A stretch of DNA of 44,125 nt from Candidatus Omnitrophota bacterium (GTDB taxonomy: Bacteria > Omnitrophota > Omnitrophia > Omnitrophales > Aquincolibacteriaceae): the NCBI GenBank assembly GCA_016196555.1, contig JACPXL010000057.1, positions 1 through 44,125 of the forward strand. Reading direction: 5' to 3'. Of this stretch, positions 9,782 through 35,805 are shown piece by piece. The notes below the pieces were generated by a model. It ran no database searches. It worked only from the letters and a program-made list of their open reading frames with translations, and was not told where the DNA came from. Position 1 is the stretch's first letter, and every line of letters begins with the position of its first letter. The position numbers were made by a program, and so were the translations under genes.

Positions 9782-11620
9782 ATGCCTCAAACTGCCAAGC
9801 CGTCGCCTTTCCTTCCTTATCTTGTCGCGATCTGCCTTGCCGTAGTTGTTTTTGCCCTCCATCAATTTCAATGGATGAATTTTCATGAGCTTGAATCCGT
9901 CGATCTGCGTTTTTCACTGCGCGGCGTAAAGCCTGTTCCTCAAGATGTGGTGATCGTGGAAATCGACGAAGCCAGCCTGCAAAGCCTGGGGGCCTGGCCT
10001 TGGCCGCGCAAAACCCATACGGAATTTTTGCAAGCACTAGAGAAATTCAAACCCCGCTTCGTGATTTACAATATTCTTTTTACTCAAGACAGTTCTATCG
10101 AGGAAGAGAACCGCGAACTTGCGACGGCCATGGAAAAAGTGGGGAAAGTGATTTTGCCTTTCTATTATTATTCGGAAAAACCTTTTCGGGCTTTTTTCCC
10201 CACCCATGTTTTGCAGGAATCCACCCGCAGCACAGGTTTTGCTAATCTGTCGGCGGATCGCGACGGAAAAATCCGTCGTTTGAAACTTTCAGTCCGATCT
10301 GATGAGGATGTTTTTTATCCGATTTCCGTGCTTGCCGCGATGAGTCAATTTGTGGATGAAGAAAAATCCCGCCGTTGGATTACGCAAATTCCAACCGATT
10401 CCCGAAATCATTTTTGGATCAACGAGGCTGATGTCTCTTCTCTCGAAAAAGTCTCCTTTTCCCGCGTTTTGCAAGCTTCGCAAAGCGGAGAGGAATCTTT
10501 GCTGAGAAAAATCTTTGAAAATCGCGGGGTTTTAGTGGGCAAAGTCGAATCTGAAACCATGATTCAGGCTAAAGCGCTTCATACCTTGATGAGCGGAATC
10601 TATCTTCACCCGACTCACCGCATTTTCGATTTATGCCTCATTCTTTTTCTTGCGATTGTAGCCTGCTGGAGCGCCAAAATCGCTTCTCCAGGCTTTGGAA
10701 TTTTTTCCATTCTAGCTTTGATGGGGAGCTATGCTCTACTGAATATTCTCGCTTTTAATTTTTGGGGATGGATTCTGCCATTTTTTGTTCCGCTCATTGT
10801 CATGGGTTCGATTTATATTCTCGTCCTGTTTATGGAAGCACTGGACATTCGGTTTCGCGGAGAATTGATTGACCGGGAAATCGGAACCGCGGCAAGAATT
10901 CAGGAAACCTTTTTGCCGCGCTCGATTCCCAGCGTCGAAAATTTGGATATTGACGTGGAATGCCGTTTCGCAAGGCAAGTCGGCGGTGATTTTTATGACT
11001 GGACTGATTTTGGAAATGGAAATTTTGGGATTTGCGTAGGCGATGTTTCTGGCAAAGGGATCCCCGCGGCGATTTATATGGCGCGGGCCATCAGTGATTT
11101 CCGGCGGGAGAATAAATCGGGCCTTGAAACCGGTGAGCTCTGCCGTTTGCTGAACACGATTTTGACACGGGAGATGGCGGCCAGTTCCGGCATGTTTTTG
11201 ACCATGATTTATGTGGTCGTGAATCCTCATCAAAGAAAACTTTGGGTCACGAATGCCGCGCATATGCCGATGATTTTTTACAGCCAAAAACAAAAAAAAT
11301 CAGAAATTTTTCTGGCCAACAAAGTTCCGGTAGGAAAACCGCTCGGTCTTTTTGCGGAAGCGGATTATCAAACTATCGAATTATCGTTTGAGCCGGGGGA
11401 TTATTTTGTCCTTATCAGCGACGGAATCAAAGAGGCACGCAATGAAAAGAGCCGGGAATTTGGCCTGGACCGCATTAAAAAACTGATGGAAGAGTTTGCT
11501 GGAGTTCCTTCCGAAGAATTAATCAATCAGCTTTTTTACAGCCTTGCCGCTTTTCAGAAGGGCCTGCCGCTTCATGATGACTGTACCGCCATTTGCGTGC
11601 GGTTCCGCGCCGGTTTTTGA
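9782..11620 (+). CDS. CHASE2 sensor / SpoIIE-type PP2C phosphatase
   Basis: A 612-residue membrane phosphatase. Residues about 11-28 form a first transmembrane helix. A periplasmic CHASE2 domain (about 33-270) shows VVIVEIDEASLQSLGAWPWPR and TGFANLSADRDGKIRRLKL. Three hydrophobic helices span about 281-352. The cytoplasmic SpoIIE/PP2C domain (about 370-612) begins AARIQETFLP and carries the metal-binding aspartates in GGDFYDW, VGDVSGKG, LISDG and HDDCTAICVRF. Such enzymes dephosphorylate STAS-domain antagonists. It most likely acts on the STAS protein at 7201-7536 in response to an envelope signal. It follows mlaD after 11 bases, which ties the regulator to the lipid transporter. Confidence 0.9.
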   Translation: MPQTAKPSPFLPYLVAICLAVVVFALHQFQWMNFHELESVDLRFSLRGVKPVPQDVVIVEIDEASLQSLGAWPWPRKTHTEFLQALEKFKPRFVIYNILFTQDSSIEEENRELATAMEKVGKVILPFYYYSEKPFRAFFPTHVLQESTRSTGFANLSADRDGKIRRLKLSVRSDEDVFYPISVLAAMSQFVDEEKSRRWITQIPTDSRNHFWINEADVSSLEKVSFSRVLQASQSGEESLLRKIFENRGVLVGKVESETMIQAKALHTLMSGIYLHPTHRIFDLCLILFLAIVACWSAKIASPGFGIFSILALMGSYALLNILAFNFWGWILPFFVPLIVMGSIYILVLFMEALDIRFRGELIDREIGTAARIQETFLPRSIPSVENLDIDVECRFARQVGGDFYDWTDFGNGNFGICVGDVSGKGIPAAIYMARAISDFRRENKSGLETGELCRLLNTILTREMAASSGMFLTMIYVVVNPHQRKLWVTNAAHMPMIFYSQKQKKSEIFLANKVPVGKPLGLFAEADYQTIELSFEPGDYFVLISDGIKEARNEKSREFGLDRIKKLMEEFAGVPSEELINQLFYSLAAFQKGLPLHDDCTAICVRFRAGF

Positions 11621-11624
11621 GCGG

Positions 11625-11653
11625 TTTACAATCAATTCTCATTATGCTATTTT
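11625..11653 (+). promoter_or_regulatory. Candidate sigma70 promoter for 11672 gene
   Basis: TTTACA at 11625-11630 and TATTTT at 11648-11653 are separated by 17 bases, in the short gap after the phosphatase gene. Transcription would begin near 11660, shortly before a Shine-Dalgarno-like AAGGA and the ATG at 11672. This would give the second cobalamin block its own promoter. Confidence 0.45.
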
Positions 11654-11671
11654 GACGCGAAAGGAAGTCAC

Positions 11672-12010
11672 ATGCCTAGGAAAATCATCTCTACGCTGAT
11701 CACCCTCACTTTCGTTTTTTCGTTCTTTCCGGCGGTTGTTTTGGCAGGCGAAGGGACATTTGGTGATTATATGGGAGAGATTGGAACGAAGGTCGGCCGC
11801 GGATTGGTCAATATCATTACAAGTCCCGCGGAAATTCCCTGCACGATGGGCGATGAAATGAGCGTCAGGGGAGGGTCCGGATTTTTTACAGGTTTCGGCA
11901 AGGGAATCGCTTTTATGCTCCGGAGAATTTTGGTCGGCGTGACGGAAATTGGAACTTTCATGATTCCGATGGAACGCACGATTCCGCCTGTCTGTCAAAA
12001 AACCATCTAA
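11672..12010 (+). CDS. Exported protein resembling the TIGR04073 family
   Basis: A 112-residue protein with a clear Sec signal peptide (positive MPRK, hydrophobic core to about 23, cleavage after VLA). The mature part is glycine-rich with the pattern KVGRGLVNIITSPAEIP, a GGSGFFTGFGKGI segment and a R.LVGVTEIGTFMIP tail. This resembles the small exosortase-system-associated TIGR04073 proteins as I recall them. No exosortase or PEP-CTERM gene is seen here. Its stop shares one base with the start of the BtuF-like gene (TAATG), so it leads the second cobalamin operon although no corrin role is evident. Family assignment is moderate. Confidence 0.6.
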   Translation: MPRKIISTLITLTFVFSFFPAVVLAGEGTFGDYMGEIGTKVGRGLVNIITSPAEIPCTMGDEMSVRGGSGFFTGFGKGIAFMLRRILVGVTEIGTFMIPMERTIPPVCQKTI

Positions 12011-31387: not shown

Positions 31388-31450
31388 CATGAAGCCGAAA
31401 ACTATACAAATACTATCTTCTTTTTTAACTCACCTTGAGGGGGTTCTTCA

Positions 31451-32554
31451 TTGCGGGTTATTGCAATCGCTAATCAGAAAGGAGGCTGCGGGAAAACTAC
31501 CACAAGCATTAATTTTGCCGCATGTTTGGCGCATTTAGGTAAAAGAGTCCTCATTGTCGACCTTGATCCTCAAGGTCATTCCACCTGCGGTCTTGGTATT
31601 CATGCCGAAAAACTTTCCTGGACGATTTACGATCTCTTAAAAGGCGGCGGTCATGGCAGACAGACGTCGTGGCCGGAAGTACTGCGCGAGATCAGCCCTA
31701 ATTTATATGTAACGCCTTCCTATAGTATTCTCAGCGCCCTTGAAGAAGAACTGGTTTATCAGCCGGATTGTTTTAAACGGCTCAAGCATGAATTAGAAGG
31801 CGAGAGCTTCAGCGAATTGAAATTCCATTATGTGATTTTGGATTGTCCTCCCAATCTCGGAGTTTTAACTTTCAATGCCCTCGAAGCTGCCGATGAAATT
31901 TTTATCCCTATTGAGCCTTCCTTTTTTTCTCTGCACGGTTTGGGAAAAATCAGTGAAACCGTTCAAGCTGTCAATCAACGCCGGCCGATTCCTTTAGAAC
32001 TCCATGCTCTCCTAACGATTTTTGATTCCCGCACCCGTTTCGCGCGTGAAGTGTATGATGAAGTCAAAACCCATTTTAAAAGCCGCTTATTCCGCGCCAT
32101 TATTCACGAAAGCGTTCTTTTAAAGGAAGCTGCCAGCGCGGGGGAAAGTATTGTCCAATATGCTATGGATTCGCCGCCCTTTCGTGATTATTTCAATCTT
32201 GCTGTGGAGTATTTGGAAAGAGAATGGAACCGTCTTCTTCCTGAAGAGGAATTGGGCTGGGAAAATCTTCTTTTAAACCGCTATGGGCCTCGCCGCGTGA
32301 TCGGCGGAATTCTTTTTCAAATTATAAGTAAGAATGCCAGGACCGTGGAAATTGCCGGAGATTTCAATCATTGGATTCCTGAATCTTTGGTCAAAAGAAG
32401 TGAAGACGGATTGTGGCAGAAGGTGATTCCGATTCAACGAGGGTCGTATCGCTATAAATTTATTGTGGATGGGGAATGGCAAATGGATCCGGAATATCCG
32501 GTGCAGAAACAAAATGATTTTGGGACTTATGATTCTTATTTGGAACTTGTTTGA
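31451..32554 (+). CDS. ParA-family ATPase fused to a C-terminal glycogen-binding (CBM48/AMPK1-type) domain
   Basis: A 367-residue protein read from a TTG preceded by GAGGGGG seven bases upstream. Residues 1-255 are a ParA/Soj ATPase: deviant Walker A KGGCGKTT (10-17), VDLDPQGHSTCGLG, and Walker B YVILDCPPNLG. Residues about 285-367 form a CBM48/AMPK-beta-like domain with TVEIAGDFNHW, then GLWQKVIPIQRGSYRYKFIVDGEWQMDPE and a final D-Y-L-E strand. In known proteins this domain binds glycogen or starch, and the ATPase uses dimer cycling to position cargo. A polysaccharide-targeted ParA is therefore plausible. Two further genes of unknown function follow in tight linkage. No parB-like gene or parS site is seen. 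Confidence 0.88.
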   Translation: MRVIAIANQKGGCGKTTTSINFAACLAHLGKRVLIVDLDPQGHSTCGLGIHAEKLSWTIYDLLKGGGHGRQTSWPEVLREISPNLYVTPSYSILSALEEELVYQPDCFKRLKHELEGESFSELKFHYVILDCPPNLGVLTFNALEAADEIFIPIEPSFFSLHGLGKISETVQAVNQRRPIPLELHALLTIFDSRTRFAREVYDEVKTHFKSRLFRAIIHESVLLKEAASAGESIVQYAMDSPPFRDYFNLAVEYLEREWNRLLPEEELGWENLLLNRYGPRRVIGGILFQIISKNARTVEIAGDFNHWIPESLVKRSEDGLWQKVIPIQRGSYRYKFIVDGEWQMDPEYPVQKQNDFGTYDSYLELV

Positions 32555-32562
32555 GGTGAAAG

Positions 32563-33381
32563 ATGGAAATACGTAAATTAAAACGGGGTTTAAGGGATGT
32601 TTCGCCGCTTTTCGGGAATGTCGAAGAGCTAGCGACTCTTTTGCCGCCGCCTTCGCATTTGAATGTCTCCAGCCGTTCGCTTGAAATTTTAAATGTTTTC
32701 AGTGCTAATCATCCTGAAGAATCTCTTTTTTACAATACCTATGTGGCTTCTAAAATTGCAGCAGATCATTTTCCTTCGAATGTTATTTCTCTCGAGCCCT
32801 TTTACCGGCCGGATTCAATTCATTTGCGAAAACCTCAAGAATCACAGCCGTTTAATACCCGTTTAAAACATTTTTCCCTTTCTTGGGAACAATTTGACAA
32901 AATCATTTCAAAGCCGGTTCATCCAAACAGTTTTAATCCTCTGATGCCTCAAACTATTTTTATTGATTTTAATCACAGCAAAATTCCTTATCCGGAGAAA
33001 ATCCTTGCGGTTTTGAATAAATGGATTCTCCTGATCCGTCCCAATCTAGAAAGTCTTACGGAAACTTATAAGATGATCAAGGCTGCGAAGCCAATCAATC
33101 CGCATTTGGAATATTTTATCTTTTTAGATGCTGAACTGCCGGAATCTGAAAGCAGCCCTCTCTTTGAGCAGTTCTCCGAAGTAGTCGCCAAATATTTGGG
33201 GATTAATCTGATTTGGCTGGGAGAGCTCTCTTTTTTTAATCCTTCCGCTGCTTCCACAAGCGTGGCGAGGCTTGATCACCTTTTTCTGGATTCCCAGCCT
33301 CCTATTCATTCCCCGGCAAAAGTTTCACTGGCGCAGTTTGTTCAACCCGTTTCCGATTCTGTGGTAGGCCATGCCAGCTGA
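32563..33381 (+). CDS. Probable degenerate MinD/ParA-like protein without P-loop
   Basis: A 272-residue protein without a recognised family name. Residues about 40-80 (LEILNVFSANHPEESLFYNTYVAS and the following VISLEP) have the strand-loop-helix-strand layout of a SIMIBI P-loop ATPase, but the GKGGVGKS motif is replaced by SANHPEES. Residues 131-166 (TIFIDFN, WILLIRPNLESL) mimic the Walker B strand and the following LV..P...S strand, and 205-220 (SEVVAKYLGINLIWLGE) resembles the MinD helix that precedes a strand. It lies 8 bases after the ParA-CBM48 gene. It could be a non-catalytic partner of that ATPase. This is a fold inference only. Confidence 0.5.
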   Translation: MEIRKLKRGLRDVSPLFGNVEELATLLPPPSHLNVSSRSLEILNVFSANHPEESLFYNTYVASKIAADHFPSNVISLEPFYRPDSIHLRKPQESQPFNTRLKHFSLSWEQFDKIISKPVHPNSFNPLMPQTIFIDFNHSKIPYPEKILAVLNKWILLIRPNLESLTETYKMIKAAKPINPHLEYFIFLDAELPESESSPLFEQFSEVVAKYLGINLIWLGELSFFNPSAASTSVARLDHLFLDSQPPIHSPAKVSLAQFVQPVSDSVVGHAS

Positions 33382-33973
33382 TTTCAAGATTTTTCAGATT
33401 GAAAGCCGCCGTGAAGAAAATCATGAAAAAATCCAAGCGGCTCTGAAGCAGGCTTTGCAGGATTTGTATTCTTCATCTCTCATAACCTGTGCCCCTCCTC
33501 ATCCTTACGACCTTGAATGTAATTTCTTTTTCCGCACTAAAGAAGGAATTTTATGGGCGAGGATTTTTTACGAATCTTTATCCCACGTCTGCTTTGAAAA
33601 TCTGATTGAAGAATTTGGAGCCTTGGCGGACAGGATGAAGGAAAAAATCAGCGTCTGCGTTTTCTTTCCTTCGGTGGGGCGGGGGATTGCTGAGGCGTTC
33701 CGGTCGGCCGCGAATCTCAGAAAAAATTTGATTATCAATTCTGCGACCACTCGTTTCTTCGAATATTCCTTTTTATGGTCTCAAACCGAAGAAGAAGGGC
33801 TCGCGCTTAAACAGTGGCATCTTTTGCCGGAAGCAGTGTCTGTTTCGGTCCAAAGTCCTGCTGCGACGGCCGGAAAATTGCCCGAAGATTATCATTTTTT
33901 CAAGTACGCCCGGTTGTCGGCCCCTGAATTGGAAGCCTTGCTGGAAATTGCCCATCGTCTGAAAAAAGCCTAG
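33371..33973 (+). CDS. Hypothetical protein of the ParA-CBM48 cassette
   Basis: A 200-residue protein not recognised. It is soluble, without signal or membrane segments. The middle (about 50-125) shows alternating strands and helices (NFFFRTKEGILWARIFYE, then a helix, then ISVCVFFPSVGRG) and a final amphipathic helix ends the protein. It overlaps the preceding gene by 11 bases, so all three genes of the cassette are probably translated together and act in one process. A promoter for the next gene follows immediately. Confidence 0.6.
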   Translation: MPADFKIFQIESRREENHEKIQAALKQALQDLYSSSLITCAPPHPYDLECNFFFRTKEGILWARIFYESLSHVCFENLIEEFGALADRMKEKISVCVFFPSVGRGIAEAFRSAANLRKNLIINSATTRFFEYSFLWSQTEEEGLALKQWHLLPEAVSVSVQSPAATAGKLPEDYHFFKYARLSAPELEALLEIAHRLKKA

Positions 33974-34008: not shown

Positions 34009-34037
34009 TTGATGGGGTGGGGAATCTTCCCTATAAT
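34009..34037 (+). promoter_or_regulatory. Sigma70-type promoter close to the ATG (leaderless transcript predicted)
   Basis: TTGATG (34009-34014), 17 bases, then a perfect TATAAT (34032-34037). The predicted start of transcription is near 34043-34045, only two to four bases before the ATG at 34047, and no Shine-Dalgarno sequence is present. Confidence 0.72.
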
Positions 34038-34046
34038 CAACTTTCT

Positions 34047-34763
34047 ATGGCACCCCAGGTCAAAGACAATATTACAGCCCTCAAGAAAGCCCAGGAAATC
34101 GACCGGGAAATTTATCTGGCCCAGGAACAGCTTAAAGAAATTCCTGAGGAGATTGCTCGGTTGAAGCAGGAATTAGAAGTCGAAAAAGGGCATTTAAAAG
34201 AGCTCGATGGCGTCCTCAAGAAACTGCAGCTAGCTCAGAAACAAAAAGAAGGCGAGCTTGCGCAAAAAGAGGCCAATGTCAAAAAATTGGACGGCCAGCT
34301 CAGCCAGGTTAAAACCAACAAAGAATACAGCGCCCTCCAGCAAGAAATCGCGTCCTTGAAAGCTGATAACTCTCTTTTGGAAGAAGAGATCATACGCCTT
34401 CTCGATGAAATTGAAGCGGCCCACGAAGAAGTCAGAAAAGAATCGGAACGTCTCAAGCAGTGTGAGAAAGAGTTTTCCGGTAAAGAAGCACAACTTTCCC
34501 AGAAACAAAAAGAGCTTCAGGGGAATGCCGAAAAATTAAAAAGCGAACGCGAACAATTTGTTTCTCAGGTCCTTCCAGAAATCCGCAGTCTTTATGAGAC
34601 AGTGATTCAAAAAAAATCCGGCATTGCCTTGGCCAAAGTCAACGGAGAGAATTGTGGCGCCTGCCAAATCAAACTCCGTCCTCAGCTCGTGAATGAAATT
34701 CTCATGGGGCAAAACGTTGTCCTGTGCGAGAGCTGTTCCCGCATTTTGTACGTCGAAGAATAA
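34047..34763 (+). CDS. Coiled-coil protein with C-terminal zinc ribbon (DUF164/CT398-like)
   Basis: A 238-residue protein. Residues about 5-185 form an antiparallel coiled-coil hairpin rich in E, K, Q and L. The C-terminus carries a C4 zinc ribbon with NCGACQIKL and VVLCESCSRIL. This matches the CT398/HP0958-like family (DUF164), whose members act as chaperones or bind nucleic acids. The frame is open to 34017, but that region contains the -10 box, so the ATG at 34047 is the true start. No Shine-Dalgarno sequence precedes it. It is the last gene before the division cluster. Confidence 0.86.
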   Translation: MAPQVKDNITALKKAQEIDREIYLAQEQLKEIPEEIARLKQELEVEKGHLKELDGVLKKLQLAQKQKEGELAQKEANVKKLDGQLSQVKTNKEYSALQQEIASLKADNSLLEEEIIRLLDEIEAAHEEVRKESERLKQCEKEFSGKEAQLSQKQKELQGNAEKLKSEREQFVSQVLPEIRSLYETVIQKKSGIALAKVNGENCGACQIKLRPQLVNEILMGQNVVLCESCSRILYVEE

Positions 34764-35466: not shown

Positions 35467-35805
35467 ATGGCATATCGTTCAAGGGCAAAAATGGGAGTCG
35501 ATGTCTTAAAATTCGAAGGGGACCTGGATGCTCTGTCCATGGTCAAAATGAAAAATCGTTTAACGCGGCTTCTGAATAAAAATCATAAGAAGCTCCTTCT
35601 TGATTTGGGCCGCGCACGGCGTGTGGAATTGGCCGGTCTCGGTATTTTGGTCGACCGCCTAATGAAAGTGCGCGCCCAAAAAGGGGACATCAAACTTTGC
35701 AACCTTCGTCCCGAAGTAGAACAGACCTTTCGAATGATCGGTGTGGGTGATCTGATGGAATTTTTTCGATCCGAAGAGGAAGCGATTCGGAGCTTTGTTT
35801 CATAG
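35467..35805 (+). CDS. STAS-domain protein in the division cluster
   Basis: A 112-residue single STAS domain: VDVLKFEGDLDALSMVKMKNRL, KKLLLDLGRARRVELAGLGILVDRL, and RPEVEQTFRMIGVGDLMEFF. In phosphorylated STAS proteins the loop reads DSSGL; here it reads ELAGL, so the target serine is absent. The gene has a GGAGG-like Shine-Dalgarno sequence and overlaps rsmH by 11 bases, so it is translationally tied to the division cluster, where a STAS gene is not standard. It may relay a signal by binding only, or act as a structural partner. The RsbW-like kinase at 6696-7094 could not phosphorylate it at the usual site. Confidence 0.82.
   Translation: MAYRSRAKMGVDVLKFEGDLDALSMVKMKNRLTRLLNKNHKKLLLDLGRARRVELAGLGILVDRLMKVRAQKGDIKLCNLRPEVEQTFRMIGVGDLMEFFRSEEEAIRSFVS

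Follow-up and report, generated by a model that had tools for sequence, protein, structure and literature searches.

Why would a ParA-type ATPase carry, within the same polypeptide, a predicted alpha-glucan-binding domain, and what would such a protein place, sense or hold together? The question is raised by a gene of Candidatus Omnitrophota, found on the contig JACPXL010000057.1 of assembly GCA_016196555.1 (the window, that is the whole stretch of 44,125 nucleotides that was analysed). The corresponding genome measures 1.69 Mb in 97 contigs, is 86% complete and 5.6% contaminated, and its closest named relatives are Candidatus Omnitrophota MAGs. The cargos known for ParA/MinD systems are DNA, protein organelles, chemoreceptor arrays, flagella and division sites, and we know of no mechanism for the inheritance of bacterial glycogen between daughter cells. 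If the protein acts on alpha-glucan as its domains suggest, a polysaccharide store would represent a new class of ParA/MinD cargo, and the cells carrying the fusion may place or partition their sugar stores.

Domains and conserved residues of the fusion protein

The ParA domain (Table 1) displays the deviant Walker A motif KGGCGKTTT with its signature Lys10, together with DLDPQ and DCPP, and is matched end to end by Soj and ParA structures, the closest being ParA 8ray (1.5e-49), T. thermophilus Soj 1wcv (1.3e-42) and H. pylori Soj (1.6e-32). After a linker of approximately 26 residues in the window protein, longer in other families, the C-terminus matches both AMPK1_CBM (PF16561, E 2.7e-13, 50.4 bits for a curated cut-off of 26.8) and CBM_48 (PF02922, 2e-7, 31.7 bits for a curated cut-off of 22.4). 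In the PDB, this C-terminal domain lies closest to the AMPK beta-2 and beta-1 glycogen-binding domains (best 1.7e-8); pullulanase, branching enzyme and the starch phosphatase SEX4 come next. The original prediction, made from the sequence alone, had proposed an intact deviant Walker A ParA domain and a CBM48/AMPK-beta-like domain in one protein, the latter at residues 280-367. The AAA_31, AMPK1_CBM and CBM_48 profiles bear out this architecture, the bounds are correct (profile match 285-365), and the HMM check that it suggested for the C-terminus gave matches over the cut-off with the sugar-stacking aromatics retained.

Table 1. Position of the fusion gene, its domains and the genes that follow it in the window
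Feature	Position	Strand	Basis
Likely ribosome-binding site GAGGGGG	31437..31443	+	7 bases 5' of the TTG start; sequence inspection
ParA-CBM48 fusion protein, 367 aa, TTG start	31451..32554	+	ORF and domain profiles; full length kept in relatives
ParA ATPase domain, residues 1-258	31451..32224	+	Pfam AAA_31 5.5e-46; ATPase residues invariant 88/88
CBM48/AMPK-beta-type alpha-glucan-binding domain (predicted), residues 285-365	32303..32545	+	Profiles, nearest structures, contact residues
Partner u272, basic N-terminal motif and MinD/FlhG-like predicted fold without P-loop	32563..33381	+	Next gene in 28 loci; AlphaFold and Foldseek
u272 N-terminal motif RKLKRGLRDVSPLF, candidate ParA-activating peptide	32572..32613	+	Motif model and degenerate pattern
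Third gene, u200; tentative assignment to a degenerate NucS-like fold	33371..33973	+	Conserved position; best fold match 2vld E 0.035
CdsZ/CT398-like coiled-coil zinc-ribbon protein	34017..34763	+	Conserved neighbour lying between the operon of the fusion and mraZ; possibly not part of the system

The signature Lys, the P-loop Lys and the three Walker Asp examined are invariant in 88/88 fusions. On the CBM48 side, the two sugar-stacking positions equivalent to AMPK W100 and W133 are occupied by Trp in 88/88 and 87/88 fusions, the equivalent of K126 is Lys or Arg in 83/88, that of L146 is Phe or Tyr in 81/88 and that of N150 is Asn or Asp in 87/88; in the window protein these five positions, in the order W100, K126, W133, L146, N150, hold Trp, Lys, Trp, Phe and Asp, the two Trp being W308 and W343. 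The roles of these sugar-contact residues have been described in AMPK, where mutation of the two glucan-stacking Trp abolishes the glucan effect (PMC9788615); the plant CBM48 protein PTST, too, no longer binds starch once its two corresponding Trp are mutated (PMC4339375). The fusion CBM48 thus shares with the AMPK beta glycogen-binding domain its family and its stacking Trp, but it is joined to a ParA ATPase, outside any kinase complex. PTST (PROTEIN TARGETING TO STARCH) likewise combines a CBM48 with a protein-interaction region that brings a protein to starch granules (PMC4339375), whereas it has no ATPase and acts in a eukaryotic plastid.

This conservation bears on the possibility that the E-set domain has been turned into a protein-protein interaction module, its sugar binding lost, so that a protein cargo would be positioned. 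In favour of this explanation, CBM48-like domains are found in numerous other bacterial proteins, some of which have tandem copies and no evident link to glycogen (L095, L103, L105). It is nevertheless distinctly unlikely in our view, both stacking Trp and the equivalents of Lys/Arg126 (83/88) and Asn/Asp150 (87/88) being retained over several phyla, and the retention of these contacts across phyla would be hard to explain without a ligand role for the CBM48. The tandem proteins, which belong to Spirochaetes and Bacteroidota MAGs, contain 3-4 AMPK1_CBM domains each.

Two alignment positions were also followed that we take to be the DNA-contact arginines of B. subtilis Soj. Across the fusions, 76/88 have Arg at one and 58/88 have Lys or Arg at the other. 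In the clade of the window, the first is basic in 7/15 and the second in 0/15, and a Lys or Arg is retained at residue 225. Since these presumed contacts are mostly gone in that clade, nucleoid binding is uncertain for it.

Distribution and phylogeny of the fusion

Among 58 relatives, full-length fusions were found at 53-64% identity in approximately 25 genomes of the same family, and other families of the same order possess the fusion with short or long linkers. All of the aligned members (32/32) match both AAA_31 and AMPK1_CBM. The identical architecture in many independent genomes rules out a MAG mis-join. When sampling was extended across Omnitrophota, the fusion was present in 133/193 genomes, a count in which a best E < 1e-44 was taken as the fusion and two borderline cases were scored negative. 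A scan of named genomes added 39 further fusions, in Omnitrophota, many Phycisphaerae, other Planctomycetota, Candidatus Auribacter (Auribacterota) and MAGs labelled Zixiibacteriota, Desulfobacterales, Nitrospirae and Gammaproteobacteria; those of the last four labels come from one MAG each and may lie on contaminant contigs. The survey beyond one assembly that the original prediction had called for therefore reveals a widespread protein, and the occurrence in 133/193 Omnitrophota genomes and in other phyla rules out a fusion confined to a single assembly.

A tree was built from ParA domains, 45 of them fused and 10 unfused (a small sample of the latter), and a single branch with 100/99 support separates the fused domains from unfused ParA/Soj, in agreement with a single origin of the fusion as far as the sequences indicate. 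The pairing of ParA with CBM48 is old and widespread, is maintained in several bacterial phyla about which little is known, and offers a functional handle on phyla that are uncultivated.

The partner protein and the proposed ATPase cycle

The gene following the fusion encodes a protein, u272, a relative of which is the next gene in 28/28 loci of its cluster. The body of u272 diverges fast and the N-terminus keeps K-L-K-R-G-L-K-D-I-S-P-L-F; this basic N-terminal motif (KLKRGLRDVSPLF) resembles, in its sequence, the ParA-activating peptides, and we take KLKRGL..LF to be similar to the activating peptide of ParB in particular. A position-weight model of the motif, trained on partner N-termini of the window's clade and tested on loci outside that clade, gave 13.6-25.2 bits to the gene after the fusion in six outside loci (Desulfobacterales, Nitrospirae, two Phycisphaerae, Auribacter and another Omnitrophota class), the 99th percentile over 886 other neighbouring ORFs being 6.0 bits. 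In the six-frame translations of all loci compared, the matches above 15 bits were all fusion partners save one, a DUF4912 protein. The degenerate pattern RGLx[DE]hSx[LF]F gave 39 matches in 58 whole genomes, of which 30 directly adjoin the fusion gene and 9 lie elsewhere, the same number (9) as the reversed control gave, and u272 is the sole match in the window's genome. No u272 relative was detected in several Omnitrophota classes that possess the fusion.

The AlphaFold model of u272, obtained from a shallow alignment (pLDDT 68, pTM 0.64), has FlhG 4rz3 as its best Foldseek match (E 9.5e-9, probability 1.00), with FleN, MinD and ParA also matched. The predicted fold is thus that of FlhG/FleN/MinD, whereas the window u272 has no P-loop and a different N-terminal motif; a loose P-loop pattern matches 3/32 partners, by pattern match alone. 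Comparison of the u272 profile with the ParA alignment was not significant at the sequence level. A sequence-level kinship of u272 with ParA is therefore not backed by profile comparison, and is favoured only by the fold prediction and by a weak match to CbiA in one u272 relative.

Could the partner be a ParB? No Pfam match, and hence no ParB domain, was found in u272, and an ordinary ParA-ParB pair lies on another contig of the window's genome, which rules this out. The chromosomal ParA (Soj)-ParB system has an ATPase domain homologous to that of the fusion, but the fusions form their own clade and the genome holds both. The idea, also put forward in the original prediction, of a reader of glycogen status for chromosome segregation is in consequence unlikely, since an ordinary ParA-ParB pair exists in this genome apart from the fusion, whose own partner is not ParB.

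The partners of ParA/MinD ATPases are diverse and often unidentified (PMC10241942), and they engage the ATPase via a positively charged N-terminus (PMC12204374). Owing to its linkage, to its basic N-terminal motif found across phyla and to this known N-terminal mode of ParA/MinD partners, we infer with good support that u272 would be the cognate activator of the fusion ATPase. The u272 family is a new partner family, previously unnoticed, of ParA-CBM48.

These data lead us to favour, tentatively and at slightly less than an even chance, the interpretation that the fusion serves as the ATPase in a distinct kind of ParA-type system, which would position or partition its cargo, and that this ATPase has a built-in alpha-glucan-binding module and the partner as its activator. 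From the fusion with its intact ATPase residues and retained sugar-contact residues, and from the linked partner with its cross-phylum motif, all of which are apparent in the sequences themselves, we infer glucan binding, an activating partner, a dynamic cycle and a cargo as follows. ATP-bound dimers would attach to a surface, the nucleoid or another matrix, via the ParA domain, and the CBM48 domain would dock them on glycogen or on glycogen-making complexes. By its basic N-terminal motif, u272 would contact the dimer, stimulate ATP hydrolysis and release the ATPase, and the glucan body might thereby be spaced, held or shared between daughters. The nearest functional parallel is McdAB, in which McdA is a ParA-type ATPase that places a metabolic body, the carboxysome, and the adjacent McdB acts through a basic N-terminus (PMC12204374). 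McdA has no cargo-binding domain, however, whereas ParA-CBM48 has a predicted glucan-binding domain within the ATPase and a partner of MinD-like predicted fold, and McdA 6non is only a distant sequence match to the ParA domain of the fusion (1.2e-11).

Neighbouring genes and the possible role of alpha-glucan

Loci of the window's class are arranged as CorC-like, CorC-like, small protein, ParA-CBM48, u272, u200, CdsZ-like, mraZ, STAS, mraW, so that the neighbours of the window's own operon are CorC-like proteins and the dcw cluster; no alpha-glucan gene is found in this operon, and no cellulose synthase gene among the conserved neighbours identified around the fusion. The STAS-domain protein (35467-35805 of the window), between mraZ and mraW, is kept across the class. 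In most loci of the class the operon stands directly 5' of mraZ-mraW-ftsL-ftsI, a position that agrees with the main rival reading, according to which the CBM48 is a metabolite-responsive switch: maltodextrin or glycogen would alter the ATPase cycle, and another cargo (division site, envelope machinery or membrane protein) would be placed according to carbohydrate status, glucan being the signal. The same domain in AMPK reports glycogen to the catalytic part (PMC2642990). We consider this reading unlikely, with an appreciable probability all the same; the linkage to dcw is restricted to one class and missing elsewhere.

In Omnitrophota classes other than that of the window, the fusion is preceded by the gene of a small protein that spans the membrane once (18 loci). 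This bitopic protein possibly has an extracytoplasmic jelly roll, with weak CBM17/28 and mannanase-binding matches below the cut-off, and a carbohydrate-binding domain of this sort beside the fusion would again suit a glucan signal. The family (L139-L158) has a cytosolic K/R-rich N-terminus, EIYEHLAKIYLD, matches no Pfam family over the cut-off and is tightly linked to the fusion. By eye, the u272 motif has a likeness in these upstream membrane proteins, which the position-weight test did not bear out (p 0.29; reverse direction p 0.65). Two genes upstream of the fusion, 8/20 loci of these other Omnitrophota, from four families, encode a cytosolic GH57 enzyme (PF03065, 5.9e-61), a member of a family of alpha-glucan enzymes, and the GH57 gene is preceded by a gene for a porin-like protein. 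This GH57 linkage, which could be read with glucan as a signal, is equally compatible with glucan as the cargo.

The GH57 and porin linkage also accords with a ParA-like scaffold without positioning, which would unite glycogen synthase, branching enzyme or polysaccharide export machinery in a role like that of BcsQ in cellulose synthesis, and the fusion does give a weak BcsQ profile match (Pfam, 38 bits). Such a scaffold is nonetheless very unlikely: a glucan synthase is missing from the conserved operon, and full conservation of the ATPase residues, together with linkage to an activator-like partner, speaks for an active ParA cycle.

Further associations with alpha-glucan come from single loci. 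In the genome of L060, a DUF4912 protein (10323-11858), four genes downstream of the fusion, bears RKLGKGLEDISHLFLSS, which is nearly identical to the sequence in the u272-type partner encoded there; its gene is followed by that of a GH57 branching enzyme with a BE_C domain. No such motif occurs in the DUF4912 proteins from relatives of the window; it is not a general property of DUF4912 proteins and, among them, is confined to this one genome (L060). In the window's genome, a stand-alone CBM48/AMPK1_CBM protein of 96 aa lies directly upstream of glgA, the glycogen synthase gene (contig C25, L043:2834-3121), and on contig C89 (L186) a DUF4912 gene adjoins a GH57 1,4-alpha-glucan branching enzyme. 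Several relatives have DUF4912 at approximately 10 kb or less from glycogen phosphorylase. Glycogen synthase itself was found in 125/133 genomes with the fusion versus 46/60 without (Fisher p 0.001, without correction for phylogenetic relatedness). This co-occurrence counts little, because fusion and glycogen synthase are both distributed along phylogenetic lines and are jointly missing from several small genomes, and the synthase is so frequent in the phylum that its presence says little. The link of the fusion to alpha-glucan is thus circumstantial.

The prediction of a device that places or segregates glycogen granules is accordingly upheld in part. A positioning device tied to alpha-glucan is favoured by the ParA-activator-like neighbour and by the alpha-glucan enzymes near relatives; granules as the cargo would go a step further. 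In that narrower form, a dedicated and ancient ParA-type system by which Omnitrophota, Planctomycetota and relatives would spatially organise or partition bodies of glycogen (alpha-glucan), using a CBM48-tethered ATPase and a MinD-like pseudo-ATPase activator, is possible though doubtful. The open-access literature, which leaves subscription papers and preprints mostly outside its scope, yielded no relevant account of ParA in connection with CBM48, glycogen or Omnitrophota, in keeping with the earlier remark that no described system of such architecture was known to its author. Among ParA/MinD systems, this one would stand out by having its cargo-type domain within the ATPase itself and by its new partner family. 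With a motor-like ATPase and a putative cargo-binding domain in one protein and a short candidate activating peptide in the next gene, the architecture is directly testable.

Finally, the third gene of the operon deserves mention. A NucS-like fold for u200 is suggestive only, the best fold match being 2vld at E 0.035. The third genes of L059 and L060, like u200, may have a degenerate NucS/EndoMS-like nuclease fold, and in locus L062 a u200-like region is apparently fused behind the partner motif.
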